In this document: piece by piece, positions 3,920 to 36,308 of the stretch | How the letters are laid out: each line of letters begins with the position of its first letter | Position numbering within the stretch: position 1 is the stretch's first letter | Source of the DNA: a virus | DNA length: 43,482 bases | Virus record (IMG/VR): IMGVR_UViG_3300009160_000061 | Span: 1-43,482 of that record | Strand: one strand, 5' to 3' | Notes under the pieces: generated by a model | Databases searched by the model: none | What the model was told of the DNA's origin: nothing | What the model saw: the letters and a program-made list of their open reading frames with translations, nothing else | Translations under genes and position numbers: made by a program

Positions 3920-5362
3920 ATGAAAAACTATAGAGGAAAAATATCCGAAAAATACGATACAATGAAATTCAATAAAGCCGGAAATTCTTTTGATTATGTG
4001 GAAGAAGATCTTAATGAAAGACTATATGGTAAACAAAGAAATATAGACAAAAACAAAAACGGTAGAATTGATAGTGAAGATTTTAAAATGTTAAGAAACA
4101 AAAAAGAAACAAAAGAAAGTATGGAAAAAGACCTTAGCGAAAAACTATATGGTAAACAAAGAAATATAGACAAAAACAAAAATGGTAGAATCGATAGAGA
4201 GGACTTCAAAATGTTAAGAAACAAAAAAGAAACAAAAGAAGGTCGTGGAGAATGTATGGAATGTGGAGGTAAATGGCCAATGGAAGAAGAAACAATCTAC
4301 GAATTTGAGGTTAATGAAAGTGATGTTTGTGAGTGTGGTGGATTGAAAATGGAGGGAGAATGTTCTGAATGTGGAATGAAAGAGTCTGATCTTTTAGAAT
4401 TTAAAGGTGATGATTATAAAGATTTAAGTATGTTTAACCCTTATTATGGTGATCATGAAGAGGAGTGTTCACATTGTAATGGAACAGGATACGACGAATT
4501 TAATGACACTGAATGTGAATGGTGTGGAGGAGAAGGTTTTTCTCAAGGTATCGACTTCCAGTACGAACCAAAACTTGAAGAAGACATGTTTGATAATGCG
4601 AAAAAAACATCTGATTTTTGGAATGACGGAGAAAAAACCTTCAGAACAAAAATGTATGAGTACGAAATATTCAACGATAAGTTAGGTAGAACCGTAAGAT
4701 TAAGTGAAGAACAAGTTGTTAATTTAATTGAGACTTTGGCCGAAGAGAAATTAAAACCATCTAAAAAAACTAGAGGATATTCTGAGTATGAAAGATCTTT
4801 TGATAAATCAGGAAAAGAAAATCAAGATTACTACAAAGAAGTTTCTAAAAAAATGAAAGATTACATGAAAGATGGATCTAAAGAGTCATTTACTATGGAA
4901 CCTAAACATTTCCCAATGGGTAATGGAGAGATAGAAGAAATGGATAAGATGGCGTATGTTCCTTCAGATAGTGTTGCAGAATACGTTGAAAACTTTACTG
5001 CAGCAGCATTAGAAAATATTGAATACGATGAATTCGCACCTAATAAAGAGTGGGTTGAAGATAATGTTCTTGGATCGTCAAGAACAGGAAACAACCCTAA
5101 ATGGGCAAATGCGGTAGAAACACCAACAAACAAAAGAAGAAATGAAATTAGAGAAAAGAATTTGTTAGGTCAAATTAAGAAAAAGGCTTATAATAAATCT
5201 CCACAACCTATTGTTAAAGATAGACCAGGAAGTGATGATGCTTCTGATCTTTTAAATAAAGTTGAAAGTGGGGAAAAAAGAAGTAGTAAAAAGTCTAAAA
5301 AAATTAACGAGGATTTAGAAAGAATAGGAAATTTAATTTCATACGGTAGAAAAACACAATAA
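3920..5362 (+). CDS. Probable structural protein with duplicated EF-hand loops and zinc knuckles
   Basis: 480 aa from the ATG at 3920; a longer frame needs a TTG at 3887 inside the upstream gene, so 3920 is preferred. Two identical-type calcium loops (DKNKNGRID..D, starting near residues 43 and 84) match the EF-hand/dockerin pattern DxNxNGxIDxxD; they lie in a 41-residue internal duplication. Next come Cys pairs (ECMECGG, CECGG, CSECG) and two DnaJ-style knuckles (CSHCNGTG, CEWCGGEG). Around residues 260-276 is RLSEEQVVNLIETLAEE, which matches the N-terminal tags of genes 16926 and 24577. The C-terminal 200 residues are acidic and unassigned. A hairpin terminator follows. Calcium and zinc binding are inferred from motifs; virion role is inference. 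Confidence 0.8.
   Translation: MKNYRGKISEKYDTMKFNKAGNSFDYVEEDLNERLYGKQRNIDKNKNGRIDSEDFKMLRNKKETKESMEKDLSEKLYGKQRNIDKNKNGRIDREDFKMLRNKKETKEGRGECMECGGKWPMEEETIYEFEVNESDVCECGGLKMEGECSECGMKESDLLEFKGDDYKDLSMFNPYYGDHEEECSHCNGTGYDEFNDTECEWCGGEGFSQGIDFQYEPKLEEDMFDNAKKTSDFWNDGEKTFRTKMYEYEIFNDKLGRTVRLSEEQVVNLIETLAEEKLKPSKKTRGYSEYERSFDKSGKENQDYYKEVSKKMKDYMKDGSKESFTMEPKHFPMGNGEIEEMDKMAYVPSDSVAEYVENFTAAALENIEYDEFAPNKEWVEDNVLGSSRTGNNPKWANAVETPTNKRRNEIREKNLLGQIKKKAYNKSPQPIVKDRPGSDDASDLLNKVESGEKRSSKKSKKINEDLERIGNLISYGRKTQ
4007..4240 (+). repeat. 123-bp internal duplication encoding the EF-hand loops
   Basis: The stretch from about 4007 and the stretch from about 4130 are near copies at a 123-bp offset (CTATATGGTAAACAAAG occurs at 4022 and 4145). 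DNA identity is high, including silent positions, so the duplication looks recent. Confidence 0.9.
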
Positions 5363-5387
5363 TTTACATAAAAATATAATAACCTAT

Positions 5388-5423
5388 AATTATCCATAGA
5401 TGAACTCTATGGATAATTTTTTT
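5388..5423 (+). terminator. Terminator-like hairpin overlapping the start of gene 5400
   Basis: Perfect 13-bp inverted repeat AATTATCCATAGA / TCTATGGATAATT (5388-5400 and 5406-5418), loop TGAAC, then T to 5423. It fits an intrinsic terminator for gene 3920, yet both candidate start codons of the next gene (5400 and 5409) lie within it. Confidence 0.75.
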
Positions 5424-5873
5424 AACTATATCTCTAAACCTATCAATAAAGAAGATATTGATACTTGGTTTAAAATTAACAATATCTTACCGGAAAAATT
5501 AGAATTGTATTATGATTTTTCATATTCATTATATGATTTAATTAAAAAAACATTTTTAGGGGAGGAAGATAATTCTGAAACCAAAATAAAAATGTCGGAA
5601 GAAGATATAGTCAATCATTTTAAATGGTGTTGGAATAAAACAATAGATAATTTTGGTAAAGAAGGTATATTTTTTACCAACGAGGGAAAACACTACGAAT
5701 ACTTTGTATTATTTTTTATAGAGATCTTTTATAATCAAAACGATAAAAAAATTAAAGAATCAATAGGGGAGTTTTTTGATGACATATTCAACATAGAAAA
5801 AACTTTCACACAATCAGATCTTGACATAATGTTAAATATATACAAATCATTAGATAACAATTTAACTGTTTAA
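5400..5873 (+). CDS. Hypothetical protein with start inside a hairpin
   Basis: Family not recognised. 157 aa (154 if the ATG at 5409 is used), acidic, rich in aromatic residues and predicted mostly helical, without signal peptide or membrane segment. Either start lies in the 13-bp hairpin at 5388-5418, so translation would need that hairpin to be open. No later in-frame ATG exists until residue 63 (KMSEED), making a short form unlikely. Confidence 0.7.
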   Translation: MNSMDNFFNYISKPINKEDIDTWFKINNILPEKLELYYDFSYSLYDLIKKTFLGEEDNSETKIKMSEEDIVNHFKWCWNKTIDNFGKEGIFFTNEGKHYEYFVLFFIEIFYNQNDKKIKESIGEFFDDIFNIEKTFTQSDLDIMLNIYKSLDNNLTV

Positions 5874-5933
5874 TATTTACTAAGATCTTAAAATTGATAT
5901 TTTTAATATTAAATAAACATATAATAATAAAAA

Positions 5934-6104
5934 ATGGAAACACTTGAAAAAATCAAAGTTTTAACAGAACAACTTAGCGTAGATACCACAAAATTTTTTG
6001 AGGGTAATAAAAGTGCGGGAACAAGAGCAAGAAAATCGGCTCAGGAGTTAAAGGCTTTAATGCAACAACTAAGAGGTGAAATTTTAGAAAGTAAAAAAGT
6101 ATAA
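5934..6104 (+). CDS. Histone H1-like protein Hc1
   Basis: 56 aa: METLEKIKVL..., then GNKSAGTRARKSAQELK and a basic C-terminal helix. The motif K-x-G-T-R-A-R-K-x-x-Q-E-L-K after a phenylalanine-rich turn is typical of the short Hc1/histone H1-like proteins common in Bacteroidota. These small basic proteins bind DNA without sequence specificity; in a phage one could compact the genome or displace host nucleoid proteins. It is followed after one base by a small membrane protein. The 60-nt spacer upstream is AT-rich with no clear promoter. Confidence 0.75.
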   Translation: METLEKIKVLTEQLSVDTTKFFEGNKSAGTRARKSAQELKALMQQLRGEILESKKV

Positions 6105-6105
6105 T

Positions 6106-7772: not shown

Positions 7773-7816
7773 ATTTTTTATCCTATATTACAAATAATAC
7801 AACAAAAAATTAATAA

Positions 7817-8895: not shown

Positions 8896-8902
8896 AAATT
8901 AA

Positions 8903-9409
8903 TTATAATAACACGGTTCTTAAATGAAAATACTTTTCTATTATAACTTTTCTTGCTTGGACAACATCTCTACCGTAAAGTTTTAAATAATTACCATTAT
9001 CGGAAAAAGTACTTGACACCACTAAAAAAGTATTATCTTCGCCACGAGCAAGGATAAATTCAATGTAGTCAAAAACCTCCTCATCTTCATTATTATTTCT
9101 TTTGTGTACAAATTTTATTTTTTTCTCTTCCGGGTTTAATGAAAATTCATTAAGTATTTTTCTATATTTGTCTCTTATTAATTTTGAAATCATAAGGTTA
9201 GGGACACCAACTCGTGTATGTATATTAATATTGGAACTAATCGCAGTTAGAATTATGTCTTTTATTTCATCATAACTTAAATTACTCTTTCTATCTTCTG
9301 TTTGATGAGTTGTTGAAATAAATTTAACTCCTTCAGGAGAAGTAAATAACCTATGGTACTTACCTCTATTTTCTAAAATTAAATTTTTAAGAACATTTAA
9401 TGTTTTCAT
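8903..9409 (-). CDS. Hypothetical protein with packaging-tag-like N-terminus
   Basis: 168 aa, family unknown. The N-terminus MKTLNVLKNLILENRGK aligns without gaps with that of the LRR protein at 10559 (MELVKLLSNIVKENTNK; shared L7, N9, E13, N14, K17, R20, L21) although the rest differs. ILE before Asn fits a prohead-protease site of the (L/I)xE type. The remaining protein has a mixed alpha/beta pattern. A TATTTATT element lies 4 nt before the ATG. Confidence 0.75.
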   Translation of the reverse strand: MKTLNVLKNLILENRGKYHRLFTSPEGVKFISTTHQTEDRKSNLSYDEIKDIILTAISSNINIHTRVGVPNLMISKLIRDKYRKILNEFSLNPEEKKIKFVHKRNNNEDEEVFDYIEFILARGEDNTFLVVSSTFSDNGNYLKLYGRDVVQARKVIIEKYFHLRTVLL

Positions 9410-9413: not shown

Positions 9414-9421
9414 AATAAATA
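9414..9421 (-). promoter_or_regulatory. TATTTATT element, 4 nt before ATG 9409
   Basis: On the minus strand TATTTATT ends 4 nt before the start codon. With a -10-like position this would put the transcript start at or next to the ATG. Confidence 0.55.
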
Positions 9422-10536: not shown

Positions 10537-10544
10537 TATTTATT
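10537..10544 (+). promoter_or_regulatory. TATTTATT motif before gene 10559
   Basis: TATTTATT ends 14 nt before the ATG at 10559, in the 43-nt spacer after the methylase gene. Same octamer as in the second promoter set. Confidence 0.45.
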
Positions 10545-10558: not shown

Positions 10559-12493
10559 ATGGAACTTGTTAAATTATTATCAAATATAGTTAAAGAAAAT
10601 ACGAATAAAAAAAATAGGTTATTACTTGAATATCCAGAATCTACCGTTAAAAAACTTGTTGGAAAATTTTCTGGCCAAACAGAAGATTCGATTGAGGTTA
10701 TTAAACAAACAATATCTGATTTTGAAAGATTTAAAGGTACTTTACAGGGTAATGAGAGAGATATCTTTACTTATGACTATCAAAAACTAAAAGATGTTGT
10801 AAACTCCAAGTCTGAGAGTCAAAAGTCTAAAAAATCTTTTGATGACATTTATAAGACTTTCATGGAAAAAAATGCCGGAGCAGATAAAAGATTAACAAAG
10901 TTAAACATTAAGAAATTTTTTGAAATGAAAGCTTTGGATTCTAAGAAGTTCAGAAAAGACATTTTAACTATGACATCCATAGAACTTTCTGCTTTAATAA
11001 GAAGAGACTTTGAAAATTTTATGAAAGAAAAGTTAACTGAAAAGTTGGTTAAAGAAAATCCCCAAGAAAATATAGAACAAGTCGTTAATAGGGTTGATAG
11101 ATATATTGCAAACTATCCTTTGGTCCCTATTAATACTAAACCGGCGGGTATGATGACTTTTATTGAGTTTGAACATGTTGTTGACGTTTTACCTATGCAG
11201 GATGAATATAAAATGCCTGAAGTTGATGTTAATGATGTTGATGTCACATATGAGGATGACACTATATTAATATTTGCACCTGATCAAAAACATAAGTGTA
11301 TTAATATTAGAAAAAAATTCGCTCCTGATAGAAGATGGTGTACATCTTGGGAGGGATCCTCAAACTATTATTACAATTATAGATTAAGACAGAATTTAAC
11401 TTTATACTATGTAATTAATAAAAATTTAAAAGAAAGTGATGTTAATTATGCGGTGGTAATCTTAGTTGATAACGATTGGAGAAATAACACACAATTTAGA
11501 TTAGCGGATGGAACTAACTCAGGTAGATTCGCAGGATCTACGATTATGCCTTTTAGTGAGATTGTACAAAAAATACCAAACCTAAACGGAAAAGAAAAAT
11601 ACTTCAAACCTAATCCATACTCAAGTGAACAACAAAGTATGATGATGACTTTTGAAAGAAAAAATTTAACAACAGACGATGCGATAAAGGAATTAGGATC
11701 AGAAGAGAATGTTGAATTATGGTTAGAATTAAGAACACCTGACTTAACAACTGTTGGTAATGGTGATCAAATATGGGCAAACTTTACGCCATACTTAAGA
11801 CACAAATACATTGGTATGGATGGTAAGATTAATGGTGAAATGCTTAAAGTAAGTGACAAAGAAAGTAAGGATTATTACCTTTCAAAGAAAAGAAAATCGT
11901 TGTTGTTAACAGATATTGACAAATTAAGTGAAGCGGATGTTTCCTTAATTATGAGTGATGAGATGGCTCCTTACCATGAGGCACTTATTAATTCATATGC
12001 AAAACAATTGGCTAAGAAAAATCTTGACCTGTCATATTTACCTATTTCTTTCCCTAATGATTCTGTTGCCAAATTTGCTATGATGTTTGGGTTAGAAACT
12101 TTATTCGAAATGTTACCTAAAGATACTCAGTTTATTAACTTAGAAAACAAATCAGATAAAGTAAAACCATTTGATGTGCCAGCAAATATATCAAGATTTA
12201 AAAATTTAAAGACCTTTGTTGCTGACAACATAATAAAAAGTTTACCTGAATCTATTGGTGAGTGTGGGGTATTATCATTCCTAAACGTTACCGGGAATAA
12301 GGAACTTAAAACTTTACCAAAATCATTATCAACATTATACTGTCTGACATTTGTGTCAGTGTTAGATTCTGGTATTGATGTTGATAGACTACCTAAAGAG
12401 TTATTTAAATACATGATACCAACCGAAGACTTCTTTATTGTTAATTTCCCACCGGAACTTAAAAAGAAAAGAGGTTGTAAAAGCGAAGACTAA
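10559..12493 (+). CDS. Large protein with RWCT-type domain and C-terminal leucine-rich repeats
   Basis: 644 aa. The N-terminus (MELVKLLSNIVKEN) matches that of gene 8903-9409 and has VKE and LLE sites like phage capsid-targeting propeptides. A helical region follows (25-190). A domain at about 225-330 contains YEDDTILIFAP and DRRWCTSWEG (259-265) and is related to a domain in gene 32761. The C-terminus (about 550-625) has two to three leucine-rich repeats (NLKTFVADN, SLPESIG, FLNVTGN, TLPKSLSTL). LRRs normally bind proteins. Packaging into the virion is inference; enzymatic function unknown. Confidence 0.8.
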   Translation: MELVKLLSNIVKENTNKKNRLLLEYPESTVKKLVGKFSGQTEDSIEVIKQTISDFERFKGTLQGNERDIFTYDYQKLKDVVNSKSESQKSKKSFDDIYKTFMEKNAGADKRLTKLNIKKFFEMKALDSKKFRKDILTMTSIELSALIRRDFENFMKEKLTEKLVKENPQENIEQVVNRVDRYIANYPLVPINTKPAGMMTFIEFEHVVDVLPMQDEYKMPEVDVNDVDVTYEDDTILIFAPDQKHKCINIRKKFAPDRRWCTSWEGSSNYYYNYRLRQNLTLYYVINKNLKESDVNYAVVILVDNDWRNNTQFRLADGTNSGRFAGSTIMPFSEIVQKIPNLNGKEKYFKPNPYSSEQQSMMMTFERKNLTTDDAIKELGSEENVELWLELRTPDLTTVGNGDQIWANFTPYLRHKYIGMDGKINGEMLKVSDKESKDYYLSKKRKSLLLTDIDKLSEADVSLIMSDEMAPYHEALINSYAKQLAKKNLDLSYLPISFPNDSVAKFAMMFGLETLFEMLPKDTQFINLENKSDKVKPFDVPANISRFKNLKTFVADNIIKSLPESIGECGVLSFLNVTGNKELKTLPKSLSTLYCLTFVSVLDSGIDVDRLPKELFKYMIPTEDFFIVNFPPELKKKRGCKSED

Positions 12494-16912: not shown

Positions 16913-16920
16913 TATTTATT
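16913..16920 (+). promoter_or_regulatory. TATTTATT element, 5 nt before ATG 16926
   Basis: TATTTATT ends 5 nt before the ATG at 16926. This supports 16926 rather than the ATG at 16905 as the true start. Confidence 0.55.
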
Positions 16921-16925: not shown

Positions 16926-18437
16926 ATGAAAAAGAAAATAAGACTTACTGAAAATAAACTTGTTAGTATTATTCTTAAATTAATTAAAGAAGATGAAATT
17001 GAAAAAGTTTATATTTCACCTGAACAATATATGCAATATTTAAGACAAGTTGGTTTTATGGCTCATGCAATACCTTATTTACCAAAATTTAGGGGTAAAA
17101 AACTTGTTGTTAAAGGTGACCTTAATCTTAGTAATGTTGATGGTAAACAAAAGATTTATAAAATTGGGGACATTGAGGTTGAAGGAGGTTTGAATGTTTC
17201 ATACACAAATGTTAAATCATTGGATGATGTTAAGGTTACGGGACATAAAACTTTTTGGCAAACCCCTTACGAAAAGGTTATTGAAAGAAGACAACTACAA
17301 GCCAAATATAATGAACAAAATGAAAAAAGAGAAGATGGTGATTGGGATATAGAAAATACTGGTTACGAAAGTCCAAGAGCCAATGCGGTTTTTCAATATG
17401 CGGTAAATGATGGGCATTTACAATCTCTTGATGATGACGAAAAAATAGAACTTAAGGAACTTAAAATAAGAATAAAAAATAAAGAAGAAGAGCAAGAAAA
17501 TTTAAGTACAGATACTGATGAATATGACTACAGTGACAAATTTGATGAGATACAAGAAGAAATAGATAGTATACAAGAAGACATTGATAGATTAATTGAA
17601 GATAAAAATGATGTATATGATCTATATCCGACAGGTTCCCATTATAATTTGGCCGAGTTTGAGTCATTGTCAACAAAAATGAGATTTGCGGTTGGTGAAT
17701 ATAGGGAAGCCGATGATTCATTGGAGGATTATTATGAACAACAAATTGATGACCTTGATAATTATTTTTCTAAAGAAACTCTATCAAGTTATGTTGATGA
17801 AGATAAAATAAAAGAATATTATAGGGATTCTGTAGAAGAATGGATAAGAGATGAACCTGATAGTTACGGGGTTGAAAAAGAATTAAGTAATTCTCAAGAA
17901 GAAGAAATTTGGTTACTAGAAATGGAAAAATGGGTTTACGAAAATGAAGGAGTAAGAGCCCCAATCAGGTACCCATCAAAAGAAAAAGATGGAACATTTG
18001 ATTTTTATGATTCTGAGGATAATGAATTACAATATAGAAGAGAAGGAAATAATTCAATATTATATAAGGAGGGTCAAGTTGTTCCACCAAGACAATTATA
18101 TGACGATGAGGACACCGAAGAACATGAAACCGATCGTGAAAATAGGATTAGTGAAATAGACTCAGAGATAGATGATATAAAAGAAAGTCCTGATGGGGAT
18201 CCTGACGAAAGTAGTATTGAAGAGGCGGTTGATAATTACTTAGAAAATGAGATAGGTTATGATCCAGCCGGATGGTTAGATAATATGGGTGGGGATATTG
18301 CCGATTTTATTGATACAAGAGAGTTATTAGATGATTTAGTTAGAAATGGGGATTATGGTGATTTAAATGGTTATGATGGTAGTTATGATACAGTTAACAT
18401 TAATGGTACTAATTATGTTGTAATGAGAATAGACTAA
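16926..18437 (+). CDS. Large acidic protein with N-terminal RLTE tag
   Basis: 503 aa from ATG 16926. Residues 6-22 (RLTENKLVSIILKLIKE) align without gaps with tags in genes 24577 and 3920 and end in an (L/I)xE site. Residues about 60-105 contain a short repeat (VKGDLNLSNVDG, VEGGLNVSYTNVKSL) like a beta-helical or LRR-type repeat. The rest is acidic and helical, with a Glu-rich coiled coil (about 180-230), and ends NGTNYVVMRID. No catalytic motif seen. Probably a packaged or virion-associated protein; this is inference from the tag. Confidence 0.8.
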   Translation: MKKKIRLTENKLVSIILKLIKEDEIEKVYISPEQYMQYLRQVGFMAHAIPYLPKFRGKKLVVKGDLNLSNVDGKQKIYKIGDIEVEGGLNVSYTNVKSLDDVKVTGHKTFWQTPYEKVIERRQLQAKYNEQNEKREDGDWDIENTGYESPRANAVFQYAVNDGHLQSLDDDEKIELKELKIRIKNKEEEQENLSTDTDEYDYSDKFDEIQEEIDSIQEDIDRLIEDKNDVYDLYPTGSHYNLAEFESLSTKMRFAVGEYREADDSLEDYYEQQIDDLDNYFSKETLSSYVDEDKIKEYYRDSVEEWIRDEPDSYGVEKELSNSQEEEIWLLEMEKWVYENEGVRAPIRYPSKEKDGTFDFYDSEDNELQYRREGNNSILYKEGQVVPPRQLYDDEDTEEHETDRENRISEIDSEIDDIKESPDGDPDESSIEEAVDNYLENEIGYDPAGWLDNMGGDIADFIDTRELLDDLVRNGDYGDLNGYDGSYDTVNINGTNYVVMRID

Positions 18438-20334: not shown

Positions 20335-20342
20335 TATTTATT
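20335..20342 (+). promoter_or_regulatory. TATTTATT element, 4 nt before ATG 20347
   Basis: TATTTATT ends 4 nt before the start codon, just after the terminator of the methylase operon. Confidence 0.55.
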
Positions 20343-20346: not shown

Positions 20347-21726
20347 ATGAAAAGACTAATTAAAGAATCGGGTATTAGAGACATCAAAAATTTATCAAAA
20401 AGATACCCTAAAGCAAAAATTTATTTTCATCAAGATTTAGATGGTGTAACAACCGCCATTGCGATGAAAGAATATTTAGAGTCAAATAACATAAATGTTG
20501 TGGATGCTGAAATTATTCAATATGGAGATAAAGAGTTTGCAATTAAAAAATTAGACGCTAAAGGTGATATAATGCCTGTTTTAGTTGATTTTGCTCACGG
20601 TAAACCAATGTTTGTTATTCATACAGATCACCACGACACTCAAGCCGGAGTTGAGGACGGAACTGCAACTTCTTTTAGAAGTTCAAGATCTAATGTAGAG
20701 ACAATATCTCAAAGTGTTTCACCTAAAGAAATATTCCCTAATGAAGATATTACATTAATTTCTACCGTAGACTCCGCAAATTTTGCTCAATATAATATTT
20801 CTGTTGATGAAGTTATAAATTATCTATTTAAGATAGATAGAAATTCTGACGTTAAAAGAAATAAAATGTTAATGGGATTAGTTGCAAACAAATTACTATT
20901 GGCATTTAAAAACAAACCAGGATTCTTAGAGGAATTAGTTTTAGATTGTAAACCTTCTTTACTTAATATACTACTTAAGATAAAATCTATAATGAAAAGA
21001 GAAGGTTTTGATAATGAAGAAAAACTAACACAAAACCAACAAAAATATATTCAAAGTATGAATGTTAGTCCTAACGTAAATGTTAGTGGAAACATATTGG
21101 TACAATACGGTGGAGGTTATATGACACCACAAGGATCTTACGATAGATACACGCCTTTTAAAAATAATCCTGACGCTGACTTTTTAGTTATTGCTTGGCC
21201 AATGGGATTAGTTCAGGCTTCCTGTAACCCATATAAAAAAGAAAGAGCACTTAAAGGTGTTGATTTAGGTGAAATAAAAAATGAGGTTTTGGATGAGATG
21301 AATCCAGAATTAGAAAGTATTATAGTCCCATTATCAACATTAAAAGTTGTTTCAGAACAAAAAGCAACATTCAAATCAGTCGGATTTACATTCAAAGACT
21401 TTATGGCGATATATGGCAAAAGTCCTTCCTTAAAAGTTTTTGGTAGAAAAGAGACATTGTTCCCGATTATAGAAAATATAATGGATAGACCTTACAGAAA
21501 TTTAAGTGTAAAACAAGTTGCACTATTGGACAAAGTTGTGTTAAATGGTAGAGACATCATAAATGCTAATTCAGGTGGACATAAATGTATTACTAATATT
21601 TCAGGTATTAATTCTTTATATAGAAAAAAAGATGGGAATGGACAAAAAAGTTATGTTGATCTAACAAAAGAAATACAACAGAAGTTTTACGAAATTTTAC
21701 AAACAAAGATTAATAGTGAAAAGTAA
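20347..21726 (+). CDS. DHH-family phosphoesterase, possibly packaged
   Basis: 459 aa. Motif I HQDLDGVTT (28-36), an Asp in VLVDFAHG (about 81), DHH itself (HTDHHDT, about 93-98) and TVDSANF (about 138) give the metal-binding set of the DHH superfamily. A late GGHKC (SGGHKCITN) fits a DHHA1-type substrate domain. Such enzymes cleave short oligoribonucleotides, cyclic dinucleotides or pAp. The N-terminus MKRLIKESG has an IKE site like the tags on other genes. Substrate unknown: nanoRNA, cyclic nucleotide signals or single-stranded DNA (RecJ) are all possible. The end overlaps DUF192 on the other strand by 17 nt. Confidence 0.85.
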   Translation: MKRLIKESGIRDIKNLSKRYPKAKIYFHQDLDGVTTAIAMKEYLESNNINVVDAEIIQYGDKEFAIKKLDAKGDIMPVLVDFAHGKPMFVIHTDHHDTQAGVEDGTATSFRSSRSNVETISQSVSPKEIFPNEDITLISTVDSANFAQYNISVDEVINYLFKIDRNSDVKRNKMLMGLVANKLLLAFKNKPGFLEELVLDCKPSLLNILLKIKSIMKREGFDNEEKLTQNQQKYIQSMNVSPNVNVSGNILVQYGGGYMTPQGSYDRYTPFKNNPDADFLVIAWPMGLVQASCNPYKKERALKGVDLGEIKNEVLDEMNPELESIIVPLSTLKVVSEQKATFKSVGFTFKDFMAIYGKSPSLKVFGRKETLFPIIENIMDRPYRNLSVKQVALLDKVVLNGRDIINANSGGHKCITNISGINSLYRKKDGNGQKSYVDLTKEIQQKFYEILQTKINSEK

Positions 21727-24565: not shown

Positions 24566-24573
24566 TATTTATA
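24566..24573 (+). promoter_or_regulatory. TATTTATA element, 3 nt before ATG 24577
   Basis: TATTTATA ends 3 nt before the start codon, right after the hairpin ending the preceding operon. Confidence 0.55.
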
Positions 24574-24576: not shown

Positions 24577-25833
24577 ATGACAAAAATTATTATTACAGAA
24601 AGACAAATGGACTTGATAGTAAAAAATCTATTAAGTGAGGCAGTTGGTGTTCCAGAAGGTATTATTGAATCAGCAGAAAAATTATATGAAATCATTTTGA
24701 ATCTATTAAAAGGTATGGACGATTACAATACCACACAAACATTTACTGAAAACAATTTAGATTTAACAATATCTGATTATAAAATACACGAGTTAGAATT
24801 ACGAGTTGAAATTAACGAAATGGATGATTATGATGGACCTCTTGTTATGATGTCTGCTGGAGTTGCAAGCCAATTTAATTTTGATAAAAAAATATTAATG
24901 AAGGTGCATAAATTAGATAATAGTATTGAATTATCTTTAAATTTTGGATCAAATGAGGATAATTGGGATTCTGAAGACATTTATAACTATTTTAGTAAAG
25001 ATAAGGTTGAATTTATATCTGTAATTGCTCACGAAATTAAACATAAGTTTGATAAACAAAAAAAAGAAACGGATTTGATAGGTAAAGATGCTGATTACCA
25101 AGCATACACTAGTTCAGGATTAAACTTTGGAATTCCAGTGATTAATGAATTTATGAGACACAGTTATTTTATTCAACACGTTGAGAACCTTGTTAGACCA
25201 ACTGAAATTGCAACAAGAATGAAATTAACCGGTATTACAAAAGAAAAGTTTAGAGAATTTTTTGAAAACGATAAAGTAGTTAAAGAACTAAAAGAAATTA
25301 GATATTTTAGTTATACTAATTTAGTTAAAAAACTACACGAACAAATGGATAGAATTGATTCTTTATTATCACATGCTGGAGTACCTTATGAAGATATGTC
25401 TGAAGATAAAAAAATATATGTACTTATGGATTTGGTTTATATTAATCTAATAAGTGCTAAAAAAGATATTTTTGATAGAATGACAGAGGATATGAATGAT
25501 AGAGCCGCGGCATTTATGAGAATGATGGGTATGGGGCATATGGTTAAAGATAATAATAGTGAAGGATTGGAGAAAGTTAGAAATAAGTTTTTAAACCACA
25601 TTGCTAGATACCGAAATAAAGAAGAACGGTTCTTTGTTGATGAGTGCGAAAGATTTAATTATGTTGCAACAAAATTAATTAAAAGACTTTCTAAAATATA
25701 TTCACTTATTCCTGATGAGAAAGAACAAACAAACGAATCTATATTAAATTGGGATTTACACCAGAAACTTATGGAAAAAAAATACGGTAAAAGAAAAATA
25801 GAAACCGAAATTAAAGATTGGAAGATTAAATAA
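24577..25833 (+). CDS. HExxH zinc metallopeptidase-like protein with N-terminal tag
   Basis: 418 aa. Residues 5-21 (IITERQMDLIVKNLLSE) are the tag also seen in genes 16926 and 3920 and end in an LxE site. A zincin signature HEIKH (152-156) lies in the helix EFISVIAHEIKHKFDKQ; a downstream Glu in RPTEIATRM (about 199) may be the third zinc ligand. The rest is helical. It resembles phage-encoded zincins of unknown target. Tag plus protease suggests a virion-packaged enzyme released on infection or acting in assembly; this is inference. Confidence 0.85.
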   Translation: MTKIIITERQMDLIVKNLLSEAVGVPEGIIESAEKLYEIILNLLKGMDDYNTTQTFTENNLDLTISDYKIHELELRVEINEMDDYDGPLVMMSAGVASQFNFDKKILMKVHKLDNSIELSLNFGSNEDNWDSEDIYNYFSKDKVEFISVIAHEIKHKFDKQKKETDLIGKDADYQAYTSSGLNFGIPVINEFMRHSYFIQHVENLVRPTEIATRMKLTGITKEKFREFFENDKVVKELKEIRYFSYTNLVKKLHEQMDRIDSLLSHAGVPYEDMSEDKKIYVLMDLVYINLISAKKDIFDRMTEDMNDRAAAFMRMMGMGHMVKDNNSEGLEKVRNKFLNHIARYRNKEERFFVDECERFNYVATKLIKRLSKIYSLIPDEKEQTNESILNWDLHQKLMEKKYGKRKIETEIKDWKIK

Positions 25834-25977
25834 TAAACTAAAATCATAGTTTGCTCAATACGAGGATTTATTAACCACTAATCCCAATTATATTCGTATT
25901 TATTAGTGAACTCGACCGGCCCATGGAAGATGGGGGTTTCCTAAAAAGATTCTTCAAGAGAGTAAATAATTTTATTT

Positions 25978-25985
25978 TATTTATT
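25978..25985 (+). promoter_or_regulatory. TATTTATT element, 6 nt before ATG 25992
   Basis: TATTTATT ends 6 nt before ATG 25992. A second TATTTATT lies near 25896-25903. The 158-nt spacer after gene 24577 otherwise holds only a weak ACTAAT/ATTAGT inverted repeat. Confidence 0.45.
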
Positions 25986-25991
25986 TTTACT

Positions 25992-28739
25992 ATGAAGAAT
26001 ATATTGCTTGGACTTTTTGTTCTATTTTCATCTTTCTTATTTTCTCAATCATGTCTCCACACTATTAAACGAACAGATACCTTTGGTGATGGGTGGAATG
26101 GAGGAACAGTCGCAGTTTCCGTTAACGGAGTAACTGTTTTATCTAATTTAAGTTGTGTTGGATTAGGTCCTACTAATTCTACATTTACCGCATCTGTTGG
26201 GTCAACCATTAGAGTATACCGAACACTCGCAGGGTCTTACCCTTCCGAAATGCGTATACAGGTTCTAAATGGCTCAGGATCTATCATAATCAATACTATA
26301 CAACCAGTTGCCGGAACCGCAACTACGGGAGGACAAACAGTATTAGGTAGTTGTGCCGCAGTTGCTGCCGGCCCATGTACTAATACTTCCTCTTACATGA
26401 CGGCAACTGCACCATCAACACCAACAACTGTAACCATCAGTACTTGTCAATACCAAACTGAATATAATACAATTTATTCTTGTGTTGCAGGACAAACATA
26501 TCAATCATATTACAATTTAGGTGGATATATCACAGTTAGATCTGGAACTTATAATGGTACTGTAGTAACTAGTGGAAACTCTCCACTAAATTGGGTTTGT
26601 CCGTCCTCAGGAACATATTTTGTTCATTACAACACAAATAACACTTGTGGAACTGCTTCAAGTTGTGGAACATCTTATATTACTTGTCTAACTTGTGCAC
26701 CACCACCACCCCCATCCAACGATTTAGTATGTAACTCAACTCCAATTACTTGTGGTCAAACACTATCAGGAACCACCGTAAATGCAACTAACTCTGGAAC
26801 GGGTGAAAATGGTTTATGTTCTGTTAGTCAAACACAACCCGGTGTTTGGTATGTTATTTCAGGAAACGGACAAATTATGACCGCAAATCTTTGTGCAACG
26901 GCATGGGATAGTAAAATGTCTGTATTTAGTGGTCCTAATTGCTCAACATTATCATGTGTTGGAGGTAATGATGATTTTGGGCCCGCTTGTTCTAGTTCAT
27001 CAGCCTCATTTTCATGGACTTCGTCAATTGGAACAAATTACTATATATTAGTTCATGGGTATAGCGCAAGTAGTAGTTTTTCTATTGGTCTAACTTGTAT
27101 ATCTCCCCCGCCAGCAGACCCAACATCAATATCTGCGACACAAAATACTATTTGTAATGGATCATCTACCACTCTAACCGCAAATGGCGCTTTGGGTGTG
27201 GTTTATTGGTATATAGGAGGTTGTGCATCCACTTTCGTGTCAACTGGAAATTCCATCTCGGTAAGTCCTGCATCAACCACTACATACTATGCGAGAAATC
27301 TAAACGGAGGTCTTTTTAGTAGTGGGTGCGCTTCAACAACAATAACAGTTAACCCTAATCCCACTGTAACTATAAGTGCGGCAACCAATACAATATGTAA
27401 CGGATCAAATACCCAATTGATATCTAACATTAGTGGAGTGTCATCACCAGGAAATCTTGTTGTAACCATCTCCACCAGTGGATTCTTAGACGAAAGTTCT
27501 TGGACTTTAACAAATAGTTTAGGGGCTGTAATTGGTTCAGGTGGACCTTATGGTTTAGGGTCAACAAATATAATTCCAATCGGTTCATCGGCAAATGGCC
27601 CATATACATTTAATGTGGAAACTCAAGGAATATGGAATGACAACACGGCAAATTATTTGGTAACTTGTAACGGAACAACGGTCCTAAGTGGAAGTTTAGT
27701 TGGTGGACAGAGCATAACACAATCAATATCATCTTGTGGGTCTTCTCCCGGTGTAACATATCTATGGACACCTTCAAACGGACTTACAAATGCAAGTGCT
27801 CCAAGTCCATTTGCTTCTCCTACGACTACACAGACCTATCAATTAACCGCAACGGCAAATGGATGTTCGGCATCAACTTCAACAACAATAACCGTAAATC
27901 CTTCTGTTGGTTTTGTGTCTACAATATCTGGTAATAATACCATAATTGCCGGAACACAAGAAAGTTATTCAATAACACCGGTAGCAAACGCAACATACCA
28001 ATGGGCATACACACAGTCCGTAACCGCACAACTTTGGATAAACGTTCCAAATTCTAACTCTCCATCAATTACATTTACTTGGCCACAGACAACAACTAAT
28101 GGTTCTGTTAGGGTTACGGTATCAAACGCTTCAAATTGTGGAACTCAAACCAGATTTTTTAATATTATTACTAATGGTGCTCTTCCTGTGGAACTATTAT
28201 CTTTTGATGGGTCTTGTAATAACAACTTAATTACTTTAAATTGGAAAACGGCAACCGAACATAACTCTGACTATTTTGATGTTCTTAAATCAAGAGATGG
28301 TATTAATTGGTCTAAATTAACAACTTTGAATTCGGCAGGAAACTCAACTCAAGAGTTAACCTACACGACAAAAGATGAAAACGCAATTGATGGAAATAAC
28401 TATTATAAACTTCTTCAATATGACATAGACGGAGTGAATAAAGAGTATGGACCAATAAATGTTATTTGTAATGGAAATTCAAAAGGTTATTTTCTCATAT
28501 TTCCAAATCCTAGTTCTGGAGATTTTCAAGTTGTGTTAAACAATAAAAATATGATTGGTAATGGAAAACTAATAATTAAAGATACAAAAGGATCTGAAAT
28601 TTTTAATAAAGAAATTAATATTGTTTCAGGGATTAATTTATATAATATTGGTGATTTAAATATAGTAGATGGAATCTATTATATTCAGGTAAGTAATGGA
28701 AATTTTTCAACACAAGTAATAAAACAAATAATTAAATAA
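25992..28739 (+). CDS. Secreted multidomain surface protein with T9SS sorting domain
   Basis: 915 aa from ATG 25992, which begins a classical signal peptide (MKNILLGLFVLFSSFLFSQ); the upstream ATG 25923 would bury it. Domains in order: a TFGDGWNGG module (about 30-120), Thr/Cys-rich segments, a CG.TLSGTTVNAT/PGVWY/GNDDFGP beta domain (about 240-380), two Ig-like repeats opening with CNGSST and CNGSNT, an LPVELLSFDG...LNWKTATEHN fibronectin-like domain, and a C-terminal FPNPSSGDF...GIYYIQV type A sorting domain of T9SS (about 845-915). It would cross the outer membrane of a Bacteroidota host and be attached or released. Higher G+C and Cys content than neighbours suggest capture from a host genome. 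Its terminator follows. Confidence 0.9.
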   Translation: MKNILLGLFVLFSSFLFSQSCLHTIKRTDTFGDGWNGGTVAVSVNGVTVLSNLSCVGLGPTNSTFTASVGSTIRVYRTLAGSYPSEMRIQVLNGSGSIIINTIQPVAGTATTGGQTVLGSCAAVAAGPCTNTSSYMTATAPSTPTTVTISTCQYQTEYNTIYSCVAGQTYQSYYNLGGYITVRSGTYNGTVVTSGNSPLNWVCPSSGTYFVHYNTNNTCGTASSCGTSYITCLTCAPPPPPSNDLVCNSTPITCGQTLSGTTVNATNSGTGENGLCSVSQTQPGVWYVISGNGQIMTANLCATAWDSKMSVFSGPNCSTLSCVGGNDDFGPACSSSSASFSWTSSIGTNYYILVHGYSASSSFSIGLTCISPPPADPTSISATQNTICNGSSTTLTANGALGVVYWYIGGCASTFVSTGNSISVSPASTTTYYARNLNGGLFSSGCASTTITVNPNPTVTISAATNTICNGSNTQLISNISGVSSPGNLVVTISTSGFLDESSWTLTNSLGAVIGSGGPYGLGSTNIIPIGSSANGPYTFNVETQGIWNDNTANYLVTCNGTTVLSGSLVGGQSITQSISSCGSSPGVTYLWTPSNGLTNASAPSPFASPTTTQTYQLTATANGCSASTSTTITVNPSVGFVSTISGNNTIIAGTQESYSITPVANATYQWAYTQSVTAQLWINVPNSNSPSITFTWPQTTTNGSVRVTVSNASNCGTQTRFFNIITNGALPVELLSFDGSCNNNLITLNWKTATEHNSDYFDVLKSRDGINWSKLTTLNSAGNSTQELTYTTKDENAIDGNNYYKLLQYDIDGVNKEYGPINVICNGNSKGYFLIFPNPSSGDFQVVLNNKNMIGNGKLIIKDTKGSEIFNKEINIVSGINLYNIGDLNIVDGIYYIQVSNGNFSTQVIKQIIK

Positions 28740-32289: not shown

Positions 32290-32322
32290 ATTAACTTTAT
32301 AAAAATATATAAATAAACAATT

Positions 32323-32565: not shown

Positions 32566-32771
32566 TGAATAAAAAATTTAACTTAGATCTAATACCGTTC
32601 CTATCAAAAAACCTTTTTTGGTATTCCATCATGGTAATAGTTAATAAATCATTTAACCCAATAGATTGGTGGATCTCCCAATATTTTTGGGGTGGGGTAT
32701 TGTTTGTTATATTTGAATTTTTTATATTTAGTTCATGTCTAATAGAAAATAAAGAAGAAAATGGGAATTAA
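32562..32771 (+). CDS. Small two-span membrane protein
   Basis: 69 aa with two hydrophobic segments (about 18-30 weak, 40-60 strong) and a Trp-rich loop NPIDWWISQYFWGG. Overlaps both neighbours (4 and 11 nt). Family not recognised. Confidence 0.6.
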   Translation: MMNKKFNLDLIPFLSKNLFWYSIMVIVNKSFNPIDWWISQYFWGGVLFVIFEFFIFSSCLIENKEENGN

Positions 32772-33807
32772 ACAATTAAAAAAAGAAAATGATTATCTTA
32801 ACATGACATTAGTTGAAATGTTAGGAAAGTTCGATACAAGTAAGACCAAAAAATATACTCAATTTTTGGTTAAAATGATAAATAAAAGAAGGGAGATTTT
32901 TAATAATGAAACTAAAGAAAATTACATACGTAATTTACAAAATAATCATTTGGATGAAGTTATTCCTAGTTCTGATTTTGATAATAATATGATAAGACAT
33001 TATGTTTGTGATAGTCTTTTTAGTCATGATGCTATGGAAAGATTTGTTGAATTTTGTAAATTAATGGATAAAGGATTAGTTGATGAAAAAGACATTAGTA
33101 AATACGATTCTTGGGATATGTTAGAAATGCAACTTTTTGAGGCTAAGAATAAAGACATGTTCAAAAAGTCAAAAAAAGAAATTAGTATTATTTTTGAGGA
33201 CGAGAATTATTTAATTTTTAGACCATTAAGTTATATGGCATCTTGTTCTTACGGGTATCAAACAAAATGGTGTACTGCAATGGTTAATGACGCATCGTAT
33301 TTCTACAGTCATTCAAGAGGAGTTTTAATTTATTTAATTGATAAAAAAGAAAATAGAAAATTTGCATTCCATAGTCCTGTTAAAGAATTTTACGACATGG
33401 ATTCACATGAAAATCTTGTATTTAAAACGTATAATCAAGAAGATAAACAAATAGACACAATCCAAACAGGTCTACCAATTAATATTATTAAGATCATTTT
33501 AATGGAGGCGGACACTAGTTTACCAACAACATTACCTAACTATAAGTTATTTTCGGAAGAGGAAAAAATTATTTTTAGAAAATACAATGGTTATGATACT
33601 GTAACAGAAGAATTGGTTGATGAATTACCAATGCCGACACAGGTGGAAGACTTTGCACCACGACTACGAGTTTTACCAAGATTAAGAAGACATATAGGAC
33701 AAACTATTCCTTTACCTACTATTGTTAGAAGAGAAGAAACAACGGAAGAATATCTAACCAAATGTATCGTTGACCATATTAATGAGGACAATGATGATTA
33801 TAATTGA
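32761..33807 (+). CDS. Protein with KWCTA-type domain, paralogous to part of gene 10559
   Basis: 348 aa. Helical N-terminal half; a domain from about 140 to 235 contains FEDENYLIFRP, TKWCTAMVND (168-177), and GVLIYLIDKKENRKFAF. The same order (YEDDTILIFAP, RRWCTSWEG, LTLYYVINKN) occurs in gene 10559, so the two share a domain, although here without leucine-rich repeats. C-terminus basic and proline-rich. Domain function unknown. Confidence 0.75.
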   Translation: MGIKQLKKENDYLNMTLVEMLGKFDTSKTKKYTQFLVKMINKRREIFNNETKENYIRNLQNNHLDEVIPSSDFDNNMIRHYVCDSLFSHDAMERFVEFCKLMDKGLVDEKDISKYDSWDMLEMQLFEAKNKDMFKKSKKEISIIFEDENYLIFRPLSYMASCSYGYQTKWCTAMVNDASYFYSHSRGVLIYLIDKKENRKFAFHSPVKEFYDMDSHENLVFKTYNQEDKQIDTIQTGLPINIIKIILMEADTSLPTTLPNYKLFSEEEKIIFRKYNGYDTVTEELVDELPMPTQVEDFAPRLRVLPRLRRHIGQTIPLPTIVRREETTEEYLTKCIVDHINEDNDDYN

Positions 33808-33815
33808 AATAAAGA

Positions 33816-34022: not shown

Positions 34023-34545
34023 AGAAGAATGGGAAAATAGATATCAATGTGTTAGAAGATTGATGTCAGTTATGGATTCATTAACTGAGGACTTTAATGA
34101 TAACCATCAAATTTTGGAGACTTGTGCTACAATGTTAAGAAACCCTATTATATTTGATAATAACGTTAAAGAGGTTAAATCAAAATTACCATTCCATGTT
34201 GAGAATATGGAAAAGGAAACGGATGATCACCTGATTGGAATGAGTAATATTGTTTTATATATACACAAAAAAGGTTTACATAAAAAATGGAAATCGGTGG
34301 AAGACTTTAAGAAAACTTTAAAGGCTTTAAATGTTTTATTACCGATAGAAAAGGCATTGAATAACAGTAAAGTATTCAAACATGAATGGAATTTTAATTA
34401 CGATAATATAGAGTCCTGTATTGAATGGGATAAAAAATTAGAATCTGTTGGTATTAAAGAATTGGTTTGTGATACGACAAAAGAAAAAATATCGGTCAAA
34501 AAAATAAAAGAACTTTGGTTCGAAGAAAATAAACATTATCTTTAA
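34012..34545 (+). CDS. Helical hypothetical protein
   Basis: 177 aa, predicted almost fully helical, no recognised family or motif. Starts inside the tail of the zinc-ribbon gene. Followed by a 49-aa gene after 3 nt. Confidence 0.65.
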   Translation: MRTKEEWENRYQCVRRLMSVMDSLTEDFNDNHQILETCATMLRNPIIFDNNVKEVKSKLPFHVENMEKETDDHLIGMSNIVLYIHKKGLHKKWKSVEDFKKTLKALNVLLPIEKALNNSKVFKHEWNFNYDNIESCIEWDKKLESVGIKELVCDTTKEKISVKKIKELWFEENKHYL

Positions 34546-34548
34546 ATT

Positions 34549-34698
34549 ATGAATAGAAAAATTGAAACATTTTTGGCAATACTTTATGTATTAAACGTTG
34601 GAATGTGTATTGTATTAGAGAATTGGATTGCCAGTGGAGGTTGGGGTTGTGCATTACTTGCACAATTAAGAATTATGGGCGTTATTAAAATTGATTAA
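34549..34698 (+). CDS. Small membrane-associated protein
   Basis: 49 aa with a hydrophobic helix (about 7-22), a GGWGCALLAQLRIMG segment that may form a second one, and few charges. Between gene 34012 and the HAD gene, whose ATG follows its stop without a gap. Family not recognised. Confidence 0.55.
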   Translation: MNRKIETFLAILYVLNVGMCIVLENWIASGGWGCALLAQLRIMGVIKID

Positions 34699-35127
34699 AT
34701 GAGACATCACGTAAACTTTTACACAAATAGGTTAGTTACCGAATGGTTAAAAAATGGTAAAATTATAATTGGTTGTGATCTTGATGATACAATTATTCCT
34801 TATAATGAAGAAATTAAAGACAACTGTAAAAAAATGGTTGATTTAATTTTGGAATGCCAAAAGGAAGGTATTATATTTTTAATCAATACCGCAAGAAGTG
34901 AATACCAATTAGAAAAAGCAAAAGAACAAGTTGAAGAACTTGGGATCACCGTACACGGAGTAAATAAAATGCATCCTGAATGGGATAAACCATATGGCGT
35001 AAATGGTAAGATATACGCTAATATATTCCTTGATGATAGAGGTGGTTTTTGGGACAATTATTGGATATTGACAAACGCTTTAACCATGGTTAAAATAGAA
35101 AGAAAAAATGGGGGTAAGAATGAATGA
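34699..35127 (+). CDS. HAD-superfamily phosphatase-like protein
   Basis: 142 aa. Motif I CDLDDTI (Asp27 and Asp29), motif II INTARS, motif IV region FLDDRGGFW. This is a compact, capless HAD protein. Such enzymes remove phosphate from small molecules or nucleic acid ends. First of three HAD genes within 3.6 kb, each with different sequence. Substrate unknown; a link to RNA ends is possible because of the neighbouring repair genes. Confidence 0.85.
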   Translation: MRHHVNFYTNRLVTEWLKNGKIIIGCDLDDTIIPYNEEIKDNCKKMVDLILECQKEGIIFLINTARSEYQLEKAKEQVEELGITVHGVNKMHPEWDKPYGVNGKIYANIFLDDRGGFWDNYWILTNALTMVKIERKNGGKNE

Positions 35128-35659
35128 TAATCACAGGACAGATCAGGAATTTGAAAACTTTTTGAAAAATATTGGTGGTATAAAAATTTCACATAAACCA
35201 CACTTGGAACCAATAACAGAAAGAAAACGATTTGGTGTTGAAAATGGATGGTTAGGGATCCTCCAAAGACTTTTTGATGTACTAATAAAAATGGGATGGG
35301 ACAAAAGTTTTATTAACGTTAAACAAAAATTTGGCGGTATGAGCATATTTTTGGATAACCTACCAGAAAATGGGTTTTACTTTGTGGTGGAAGCGGAAAA
35401 AGAAACATTTTCTGTTTGTGAAGTTTGTGGAGAACCGGGAGAACAAAATAGAATTAAAGGTTGGGTTTATACTTTATGTGAAAATCATAGAGACGAAAAA
35501 CTATATATTGAATACCAAGGAAAAACATATTTGACAAAATTATTGGAACCAATAAATAATGGTGATTTATATTACAACGCCAAGACTAATGAGATTATGG
35601 TTTGTGATGTTAATAATTTTTTTGATCCTTGGTCTTTAAAAGCCCATGAAGTTATATAA
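35120..35659 (+). CDS. Hypothetical protein with zinc-ribbon segment
   Basis: 179 aa from ATG 35120 (an ATG at 35108 adds four residues). The N-terminal half has PITERKRFGVENGWLGIL and QKFGGMSIFLDN; then SVCEVCGEPGEQ and YTLCENH form a probable zinc site. Overlaps the HAD gene by 8 nt. Family not recognised. Terminator follows. Confidence 0.7.
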   Translation: MNDNHRTDQEFENFLKNIGGIKISHKPHLEPITERKRFGVENGWLGILQRLFDVLIKMGWDKSFINVKQKFGGMSIFLDNLPENGFYFVVEAEKETFSVCEVCGEPGEQNRIKGWVYTLCENHRDEKLYIEYQGKTYLTKLLEPINNGDLYYNAKTNEIMVCDVNNFFDPWSLKAHEVI

Positions 35660-35682
35660 AACTCCATCTAAGTGGGGTTTTT
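35658..35682 (+). terminator. rho-independent terminator
   Basis: Stem AAAACTCCA / TGGGGTTTT (35658-35666, 35673-35681, one G-U pair), loop TCTAAG, T run. Confidence 0.85.
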
Positions 35683-35694
35683 AATTTAATACCA

Positions 35695-35702
35695 TATTTA
35701 TT
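35695..35702 (+). promoter_or_regulatory. TATTTATT element, 3 nt before ATG 35706
   Basis: TATTTATT ends 3 nt before the start codon, right after a terminator. One of the clearest cases of the second promoter set. Confidence 0.55.
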
Positions 35703-35705
35703 GTT

Positions 35706-36308
35706 ATGAAATATATTCTTAATGAATCACAAGCAAATGATATATCAAAACAACTAATTAAAATGTCAGATAATGTTGGTTATTATGAAACATTAAGGGG
35801 ATTTAAATTACCTTTATCTGCAGCTAAGATTTTTTTAAAACCAAAAAATGGAAATAACTTTAGTTGTCAAGAACTAACTGAGATAATGTTTTATTACATT
35901 TTTCAAACTAAAGATATACCAGAAATATTAAAAGTTGATGAAATAGAAATAACAAATGAAGAGTATGATGGTAATGGATTTCATTGGAATACATCAATTA
36001 TTAATGGGTCTGAGGTTGTAGAAACTACTTATGGATACGCTCAACCATTTTTATGTTCAAGTAGGCGGTCAATGATAATTAGTTTTCGTTTTGAATACTA
36101 TACGAGAGGTGATTGGAAAGAACCTGATAATAATTATATTGAAGAAGATGAATTTCATCTTGAATTCACATACGATATGAGTGACATTGAGTTTAAAACT
36201 TTAGATCAGGTAATATCTTGGTATTTAAACGAATACCCAAAAATAGTTAAAATGTCCGCAAAGGAGTATTTTAAAAAGGCAAAAAGTTATAACGAAAAAC
36301 ATTCGTAA
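35706..36308 (+). CDS. Hypothetical protein with ILNESQ N-terminal tag
   Basis: 200 aa. Residues 4-19 (ILNESQANDISKQLIK) align with the tags of genes 16926 and 24577 (E at the fourth place, Q at the sixth, I/L pattern after it). The rest is an alpha/beta domain with YGYAQPFLCSSRRSM in the middle and an acidic-basic C-terminal helix. Function unknown. Inserted as a single gene with its own promoter between early-type genes. Confidence 0.75.
   Translation: MKYILNESQANDISKQLIKMSDNVGYYETLRGFKLPLSAAKIFLKPKNGNNFSCQELTEIMFYYIFQTKDIPEILKVDEIEITNEEYDGNGFHWNTSIINGSEVVETTYGYAQPFLCSSRRSMIISFRFEYYTRGDWKEPDNNYIEEDEFHLEFTYDMSDIEFKTLDQVISWYLNEYPKIVKMSAKEYFKKAKSYNEKHS

Follow-up and report, generated by a model that had tools for sequence, protein, structure and literature searches.

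Leader peptides in the window

The window analysed here is a viral DNA record of 43,482 bases (IMG/VR record IMGVR_UViG_3300009160_000061, taken whole), which is AT-rich and in which we found no tRNA genes. Our subject is a short N-terminal peptide, which we call the tag, carried by two of its genes (starting at positions 16926 and 24577), together with shorter leaders on other genes. A sequence-only reading of the window had described a 17-residue tag in five places and had taken it for a capsid-targeting peptide. These five places, with the parts of the proteins that would remain after cleavage, are as follows.

16926 to 16991, plus strand: 22-residue leader MKKKIRLTENKLVSIILKLIKE of gene 16926-18437, 26.8 bits, predicted to be cut after its last Glu
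16992 to 18437, plus strand: predicted mature part of gene 16926, with no Pfam family above the cut-off
24577 to 24639, plus strand: 21-residue leader MTKIIITERQMDLIVKNLLSE of gene 24577, 25.2 bits, predicted to be cut at E21/A22
24640 to 25833, plus strand: predicted mature part of gene 24577, an HExxH metallopeptidase-like cargo in which H152, E153 and H156 are invariant
25030 to 25044, plus strand: HEIKH motif of gene 24577
20347 to 20367, plus strand: 7-residue leader MKRLIKE of the DHH-like gene 20347-21726, placed by comparison with homologs
4697 to 4747, plus strand: internal tag-like stretch RLSEEQVVNLIETLAEE in gene 3920-5362, 4.0 bits, rejected as a tag
35706 to 35765, plus strand: tag-like start ILNESQANDISKQLIKM of gene 35706, without a terminal Glu, 5.6 bits, rejected as a tag

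We scored these on a 17-column matrix built from related phages and the window, with 1812 shuffled proteins as controls. The top scores among the shuffled proteins were 6.5, 6.2 and 4.3 bits, against 26.8 for gene 16926 and 25.2 for gene 24577. The 17-residue match is real in both genes, but the first four or five residues of the leader had been missed, and the full unit is 21-22 residues counted from the Met. For the start of gene 20347 the matrix gave no match. The partial fit that had been noted for it is borne out by homologs, which read MKIIITESQYKQLIKE/SGIRD where the window has MKRLIKE/SGIRD (the slash marks the predicted cut), and on this comparison we regard it as a short form of the tag leader.

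The remaining two places did not stand out from the top-scoring shuffled proteins. The internal stretch, which starts two bases earlier than had been given, does not score above the best shuffled proteins and is a segment of low conservation within its protein family. Four homologs of gene 3920 bear N-terminal leaders (for example MDREILNIVNRVLSE/E); the window copy is without one. The start of gene 35706 scores below the best shuffled protein and its terminal Glu is missing. Two further stretches of the window score 6.9 and 7.6 bits. In our judgement the tag, and its reading as a putative capsid-targeting peptide, hold for genes 16926 and 24577 and, in the short form, for gene 20347.

Relatives and sequence sets

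The window is probably a fragment of a larger phage genome, because its relatives are 250-300 kb long. A scan with gene 24577 gave 60 loci in viral contigs, the longest of 304 kb. We fetched the relatives with six peptides of gene 24577, none of which lies within the tag, so this set was not chosen for the tag. Five related records (G001, G002, G003, G004 and G006; 254-304 kb) were read nearly whole, in stretches, and the gene order of the window parallels that of G001 at 284-304 kb plus 0-16 kb (compared by eye). Genes were called as the longest open reading frame (ORF) from the first Met; some starts are wrong, and genes that span the borders of stretches were lost. The five records and the window gave the 1812 genes used with the tag matrix. 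We also used a wider set of 272 sequences (3.48 Mb), which partly overlap and were partly fetched by the tag pattern itself, so this set is biased.

The hosts of these huge phages are probably Bacteroidota. We base this on the bS21-type gene layout (PMC9723584) and on a Flavobacterium phage among the better matches to the capsid protein, where Microcystis phage Mel-JY01 reached 300 bits vs 290 bits for immuto.

The tag in related phages

The consensus of the tag in the relatives is MKKVIRLTESDLTRIVKRVI[N/K]E, about 22 residues. Among the 1812 genes, 65 match at 10 bits or more and 59 at 17 bits or more, where shuffled proteins lead us to expect 0.2-0.6 matches at 10-14 bits. The genes with at least 17 bits are distributed as 15 in G001, 10 in G002, 17 in G003, 10 in G004, 5 in G006 and 2 in the window. 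The tag is therefore common in related phages (57 genes in five records), where the sequence-only reading had proposed to look for it. It is N-terminal in 55 of these 57 genes and internal in 2, and the 55 N-terminally tagged proteins form 46 unrelated clusters, of which 38 are singletons (phmmer, E 1e-3). The wider set holds 242 distinct tag proteins at 20 bits or more, 235 with the tag at the N-terminus and 7 with it inside; the 17-mer begins exactly five residues past the Met in 202 of the 242. After removal of the tag, 234 proteins from this set fall into 150 clusters, 115 of them singletons.

To examine the anatomy of the tag without circularity, we selected 142 distinct sequences solely on their residues 1-12. 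Glu occupies residue 22 in 133/142, and 127 of these have Leu or Ile at residue 20 (133/142 if Val is allowed). The information content is 3.41 bits at residue 22, 1.11 at residue 23 and 0.44 at residue 24, and stays at 0.09-0.48 from there on. The tag stops abruptly at the Glu. Within it are two L/I-x-E sites, one ending at residue 9 and the other at residue 22.

It could be that the N-terminal likeness comes from a constraint on translation starts or on the DNA, or from the common descent of one gene family, and a common TATTTAT element does exist upstream (see below). However, the identity of the tag at codon positions 1, 2 and 3 is 0.70, 0.81 and 0.53, and with the third position the least identical, selection acts on the peptide. 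It is residues that are conserved, with Asp not in excess, and the tag sits on 46 clusters within just five records. We consider an origin at the level of DNA or of a single family extremely improbable.

Viral contigs gave at least 120 matches to a DNA pattern of the tag, and the 257 Gb of prokaryote genome contigs gave one, on a 3.2-kb contig of an alphaproteobacterial metagenome-assembled genome. Searches of a phage collection by tblastn with gene 24577 and with the 22-residue consensus gave no match, the 22-residue query being near the limit of the search.

Short leaders

Untagged genes carry shorter leaders with a similar end. Among untagged genes that encode 80 aa or more, we counted those with the pattern [LIV][LIV]xE and its Glu at residue 7-24, and as a control we shuffled residues 2-26. 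The pattern is present in 284 of 1332 genes, where 114.6 ± 9.5 are expected (z 16-18). The excess is 2.4-2.6-fold in each record (z 6.9-8.8), and with one gene per family the count is 154/677 against 58.5 expected. It is specific to Glu (z 16, followed by Phe at 4.8, with Asp at 0.8 and Lys at -5.9) and depends on the hydrophobic pair that precedes x-Glu.

The window alone has such leaders on 8 of its 54 untagged genes, against 3.7 expected. Two candidates could be compared with homologs.

10559 to 10597, plus strand: candidate short leader MELVKLLSNIVKE of gene 10559-12493; homologs read MELINLLSNVVKE/N and MKLVKILSSVIVE/N
9371 to 9409, minus strand: candidate short leader MKTLNVLKNLILE of gene 8903-9409; homologs read MDRLIERVIKQYLLE/T and MKRLIERIFREYLLE/E

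Tagged genes and the excess of short leaders together give the number of candidate cargoes of at least 80 aa, which is about 54 in G001, 51 in G003, 40 in G002, 40 in G004 and 35 in G006. For comparison, crAss001, phi14:2 and Twort, pooled at 100 kb each, show no excess (16/274 vs 19.3 expected), and no S77 protease was found in their whole records. Immuto has short leaders in excess (25/173 vs 11.0).

A second recurrent N-terminal peptide, MNLQExIxRIKSMMGL, was seen in G001, G003 and G006 (for example at G003 237984), sometimes followed by (L/I)xE. It is possibly another class of leader.

Exchange of leaders between homologs

On comparison of the predicted proteins, homologs swap leaders yet retain the Glu at the junction. 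Leaders in the gene 24577 family vary from 15 to 23 residues, yet every one of the 24 aligned homologs keeps E21 and A22. Homologs of gene 16926 reach the same endpoint from other leaders (MSIKNIIKNMVLE/QSEE, MGLKNNVRMVLRE/QDEE and, provided that the ORF starts at an internal Met, MNKFRDFIKE/ADVE), and MSLKKFFKNYILE/QDEN occurs in this family alongside the full tag. The DHH-like family of gene 20347 has MKRLIKE/SGIRD, MKIIITESQYKQLIKE/SGIRD, MKMVITESQYKRLLNE/SGIRN and MKKILKE/TGIRD. Homologs of a protein that resembles S-adenosylmethionine (SAM) lyase have unrelated leaders at the same junction (...KKIISE/TSLSRI vs MSKQMREMINKFGNVLNE/SSLNRV). A protein encoded next to the terminase in G001 reads ...IRKIIKE/APIDYG there and ...STRLNE/APIDYE in its G003 homolog, and APIDY is kept after three leaders in three records. 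Lastly, a 150-residue protein less than about 12 kb from the capsid gene has short leaders in G001-G004 (for instance MKNLDRLIKQVLRE/D), whereas its copies in G006 and L226 bear the full tag.

We also counted families in which one member has the pattern and a homolog has an alternative leader. The Glu site is kept in 37/54, against 151/434 for the other 19 residues pooled, with a p of 2e-6 that is indicative only, as this conditioned test was devised after the unconditioned result and counts a family once per residue type. The next-highest residue is Pro, with 10/17.

These junctions bear on whether the leader is cut at all. It might be a docking helix that is never cut and that tethers its protein to a hub such as the scaffold, the portal or a replication compartment. 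The leader of gene 24577 is predicted, at low confidence, to form a helix over residues 8-23, and an amphipathic helix could bind uncleaved. On the other hand, the tag has its sharp end at Glu, the excess of short leaders is specific to Glu and the hydrophobic pair before it, leader length varies while the junction Glu is fixed, and the capsid protein bears the same kind of site (next section). We find permanent docking unlikely.

Prohead protease and capsid protein

Our survey for protease and capsid protein covered 30 related records (14 + 16), of which 6/14 and 12/16 contain Peptidase_S77 (PF03420). A gp23-like capsid protein is present in precisely the 18 of 30 records with S77, and both are absent from the remaining 12; the S77 misses look like missing head modules because the capsid protein is absent from the same records. 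All 18 capsid proteins (20 rows in our listing, with two proteins twice) have LINE, LIYE or LLNE with A or S as the next residue, at 10 or 11 residues upstream of a shared ETVVFPI[VI]RR. The capsid protein of G003 matches T4 gp23 with an E of about 1e-25, chiefly in residues 349-575. We believe that the capsid protein would be cut at this (L/I)xE site.

Several other observations concern this region. Genes for ribosomal protein S21 adjoin the prohead protease on the opposite strand (G001:135021-135179, minus, and G003:156097-156255). Ribosomal_S21 is above the cut-off in G001 and G003, beside the protease, and in G006, elsewhere; it is just below in G004, and there is no match in G002 or the window. 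A 205-aa ORF in L305 (G020) is an extra small protein that resembles the N-terminal part of the capsid protein with its predicted cleavage region. ORFs in L114 (1343 aa) and L103 (938 aa), which match what we take to be the portal protein, exceed its form of about 606 aa. They have in common an insert that begins CIAG(E/D)TKIAT and that is presumably intein-like.

The TATTTAT element

The sequence-only reading had noted that TATTTAT precedes the tagged genes. The element is indeed there before genes 16926, 24577 and 20347, just upstream of 35706 and 3920, and also before 10559 and the minus-strand gene that starts at 9409.

16913 to 16919, plus strand: TATTTAT before gene 16926
24566 to 24572, plus strand: TATTTAT before gene 24577
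20335 to 20341, plus strand: TATTTAT before gene 20347
10537 to 10543, plus strand: TATTTAT before gene 10559
9415 to 9421, minus strand: TATTTAT before gene 9409, position counted by hand

Across the five relatives and the window (genes of at least 80 aa), TATTTAT lies upstream of 25/57 tagged and 122/290 short-leader genes, vs 200/1092 other genes. No other 7-mer is as strongly enriched upstream of leader genes (151/346 vs 215/1091, p 7e-18), and the position of TATTTAT peaks at -11 to -13 and at -20 to -24. In G001 there are 35 leader-less genes with TATTTAT, whose named matches include terminase, a baseplate wedge protein and a head-tail adaptor, along with a replicative helicase and a superoxide dismutase; the comparison scan in this record covered 70/123 genes without TATTTAT. 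We think that the element is probably a late (or late-like) promoter element, because the leader-less genes that have it include terminase and baseplate, though also a helicase.

Cargo proteins

From the 150 tagged clusters of the wider, biased set we took 144 representatives with 80 aa or more and ran Pfam on them. Eleven families were matched, with one member each, including LysM, PG_binding_1, S-AdoMet_lyase and Annexin (E 8e-5). The SAM-lyase-like protein (L017:9426-9983) scores 34.3 bits vs a cut-off of 28, and its gene directly precedes the homolog of gene 24577. OmpA-like and annexin-like readings that we had made by eye (L165 and L180) were dropped, as Pfam at 0.01 found nothing for either. 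We also dropped the idea that cargo is positively charged. The median net charge of mature tagged proteins of 60-250 aa is 0.0 per residue (49 genes) vs -0.02 for 1094 others, which shows no clear basic character.

For gene 24577 we obtained a structure model with an overall pLDDT (predicted local distance difference test) of 81.9; the leader has 39-51, vs 81-96 for residues 21-60. A fold search with this model gave no match in the Protein Data Bank (PDB) at E ≤ 0.001 and matched three uncharacterised viral proteins. The profile of the family gave one match to PDB sequences, at E 0.13. For gene 20347, the match to DHH is under the Pfam cut-off.

At its C-terminal end, gene 24577 has 25 residues (ILNWDLHQKLMEKKYGKR..., window 25741-25797) that are among its most conserved, yet have low model confidence. 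This C-terminal stretch recurs in a 200-aa ORF of L056 that has a similar leader and a different middle, and it is perhaps a second, C-terminal peptide tag. Downstream, window 25923-28739 encodes a 938-aa protein in a region of higher G+C (0.40 at 26-28 kb), whose C-terminus resembles, we assume, the sorting domain of Bacteroidota type 9 secretion. The proteins of window 10559-12493 and 32761-33807 have a region with a (K/R)WCT motif in common, and no Pfam family above the cut-off.

What the leaders may do

We think it very likely that the tag acts as a T4-type propeptide for capsid targeting, which would be cut from its cargo in the head. To this point the tag with its N-terminal position and sharp end, the exchange of leaders, the protease, the capsid site and the shared upstream element. 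The capsid-targeting interpretation of the earlier reading is supported as far as sequence reaches, by the tag in relatives, by S77 and by the (L/I)xE site of the capsid protein. Under it, cargo would be made with an amphipathic N-terminal leader of 7-23 residues, presumably late in infection. The leader would dock the cargo in the core of the prohead during shell assembly, and the S77 prohead protease would then cut behind the Glu of the (L/I)xE at the leader's end, just as it would remove the propeptide of the major capsid protein. Mature cargo would stay in the head and may enter the next host with the DNA.

Several results weigh against capsid targeting with cleavage. The gp21-like protease gene that the earlier reading had proposed to look for is there, as S77, in all 18 capsid-bearing relatives, but within the 43,482 bases of the window record itself neither S77 nor a gp23-like capsid protein was matched. 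Three related or tag-carrying records of more than 200 kb are without S77, and also without the capsid protein. The site in the capsid protein is near the T4 gp23 cut, with identity unproven because the N-terminal block aligns weakly (residues 70-122 of the G003 capsid protein vs 27-74 of mature gp23; 10 bits, i-Evalue 2). Flavobacterium phage immuto, a cultured relative that is S77 positive, has no 22-residue tag. In 50 kb of T4, also S77 positive, short leaders show no clear excess (5/67 vs 3.9), and the genome-wide statistic therefore misses the few known leaders of T4. The unconditioned junction test, on 112 families with unequal N-termini, did not find Glu special (ratio 1.6; Lys 1.8, Gly 2.0), and the 37 families that keep the Glu include some that do not resemble leader-bearing ones, such as thioredoxin and the protease.

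Finally, the co-occurrence with S77 is weak evidence on its own, since any T4-like phage should have S77. The link could then be a by-product of T4-likeness, and the leader could address its protein to some other site, such as the phage nucleus, the membrane or the tail. The tagged set does include possible envelope-acting proteins (PG_binding_1 and LysM, one member each). However, another address leaves both the site of the prohead-protease type and the Glu-specific junction unexplained, and we judge it quite improbable.

Starting from capsid targeting, a broader picture can be drawn, to which we give an even chance. In it, delivery is modular: a portable 22-residue tag, which genes can exchange, and shorter leaders load some 35-54 proteins per genome into the head, including SAM-lyase-like, peptidoglycan-binding and HExxH metallopeptidase-like proteins that would act at infection, and the tag would be a key to the injected proteome of uncultured phages. 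The usual way to find the proteins that phages inject is mass spectrometry on purified virions, and this is not possible for uncultured huge phages. If the leader marks cargo, injected proteins, including possible anti-defence enzymes, could be listed from metagenomes, and what is carried into the host could perhaps be read from the genome alone. The tag leader makes the question of which proteins such phages carry in the head a testable one. The tag is also a candidate packaging signal for a T4-like delivery tool in Bacteroidota phages.

Comparison with known systems

The closest parallel is the set of capsid targeting sequences of T4. In the relevant passages of PMC9026906, gp21 cuts after L/I-x-E and the propeptides of the T4 internal proteins, of 10-19 residues, are capsid targeting sequences; those of PMC5694885 have T4 Alt cut at ITE-6 and at a C-terminal LTE. 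As here, short N-terminal peptides on unrelated proteins (IPI, IPII, IPIII and Alt, cut by gp21) end in L/I-x-E and go with an S77 protease and a gp23-type capsid protein (same passages of PMC9026906 and PMC5694885). T4 ipII and ipIII start with MKTYQEFIAE/A, close to the MNKFRDFIKE/A of the gene 16926 homolog read from an internal Met, and ipI carries an ITE at residue 19. No tag match of 14 bits or more occurs in the 50-kb part of T4 with ipI-ipIII; likeness to the T4 targeting peptides in sequence is not part of the functional definition. Unlike T4, which has a handful of such proteins, the phages studied here have a standard 22-residue tag on 5-17 genes per record and tens of short leaders.

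SPN3US and phiKZ are alike in that many head and ejection proteins are cut after Glu by a relative of gp21, and the first 15 residues of the paralogs gp53 and gp54 are identical (PMC5694885, passages on these phages). The propeptides described there for SPN3US are mostly of about 80 to more than 160 residues, with one of 20, and end in A-x-E, whereas here they are 7-23 residues, end in (L/I)-x-E and share one sequence across unrelated proteins. The bS21 phages of Bacteroidetes (up to 331 kb) have a similar block of terminase, protease and capsid with a bS21 gene on the reverse strand; the passages of PMC9723584 on this topic do not mention a leader peptide, and present packaging of bS21 in the head as an open hypothesis of its authors. 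In the open-licence PMC literature that we searched the tag is not mentioned, although similarity of motifs is not searchable there and absence from print is not shown by this.

Judged from the predicted proteins, the difference from T4 is one of leader length, uniformity and number, and the difference from SPN3US is one of shortness. What these phages have is most likely capsid targeting of the T4 type with proteolytic removal of the leader, unusual in its scale and standardised in its sequence.

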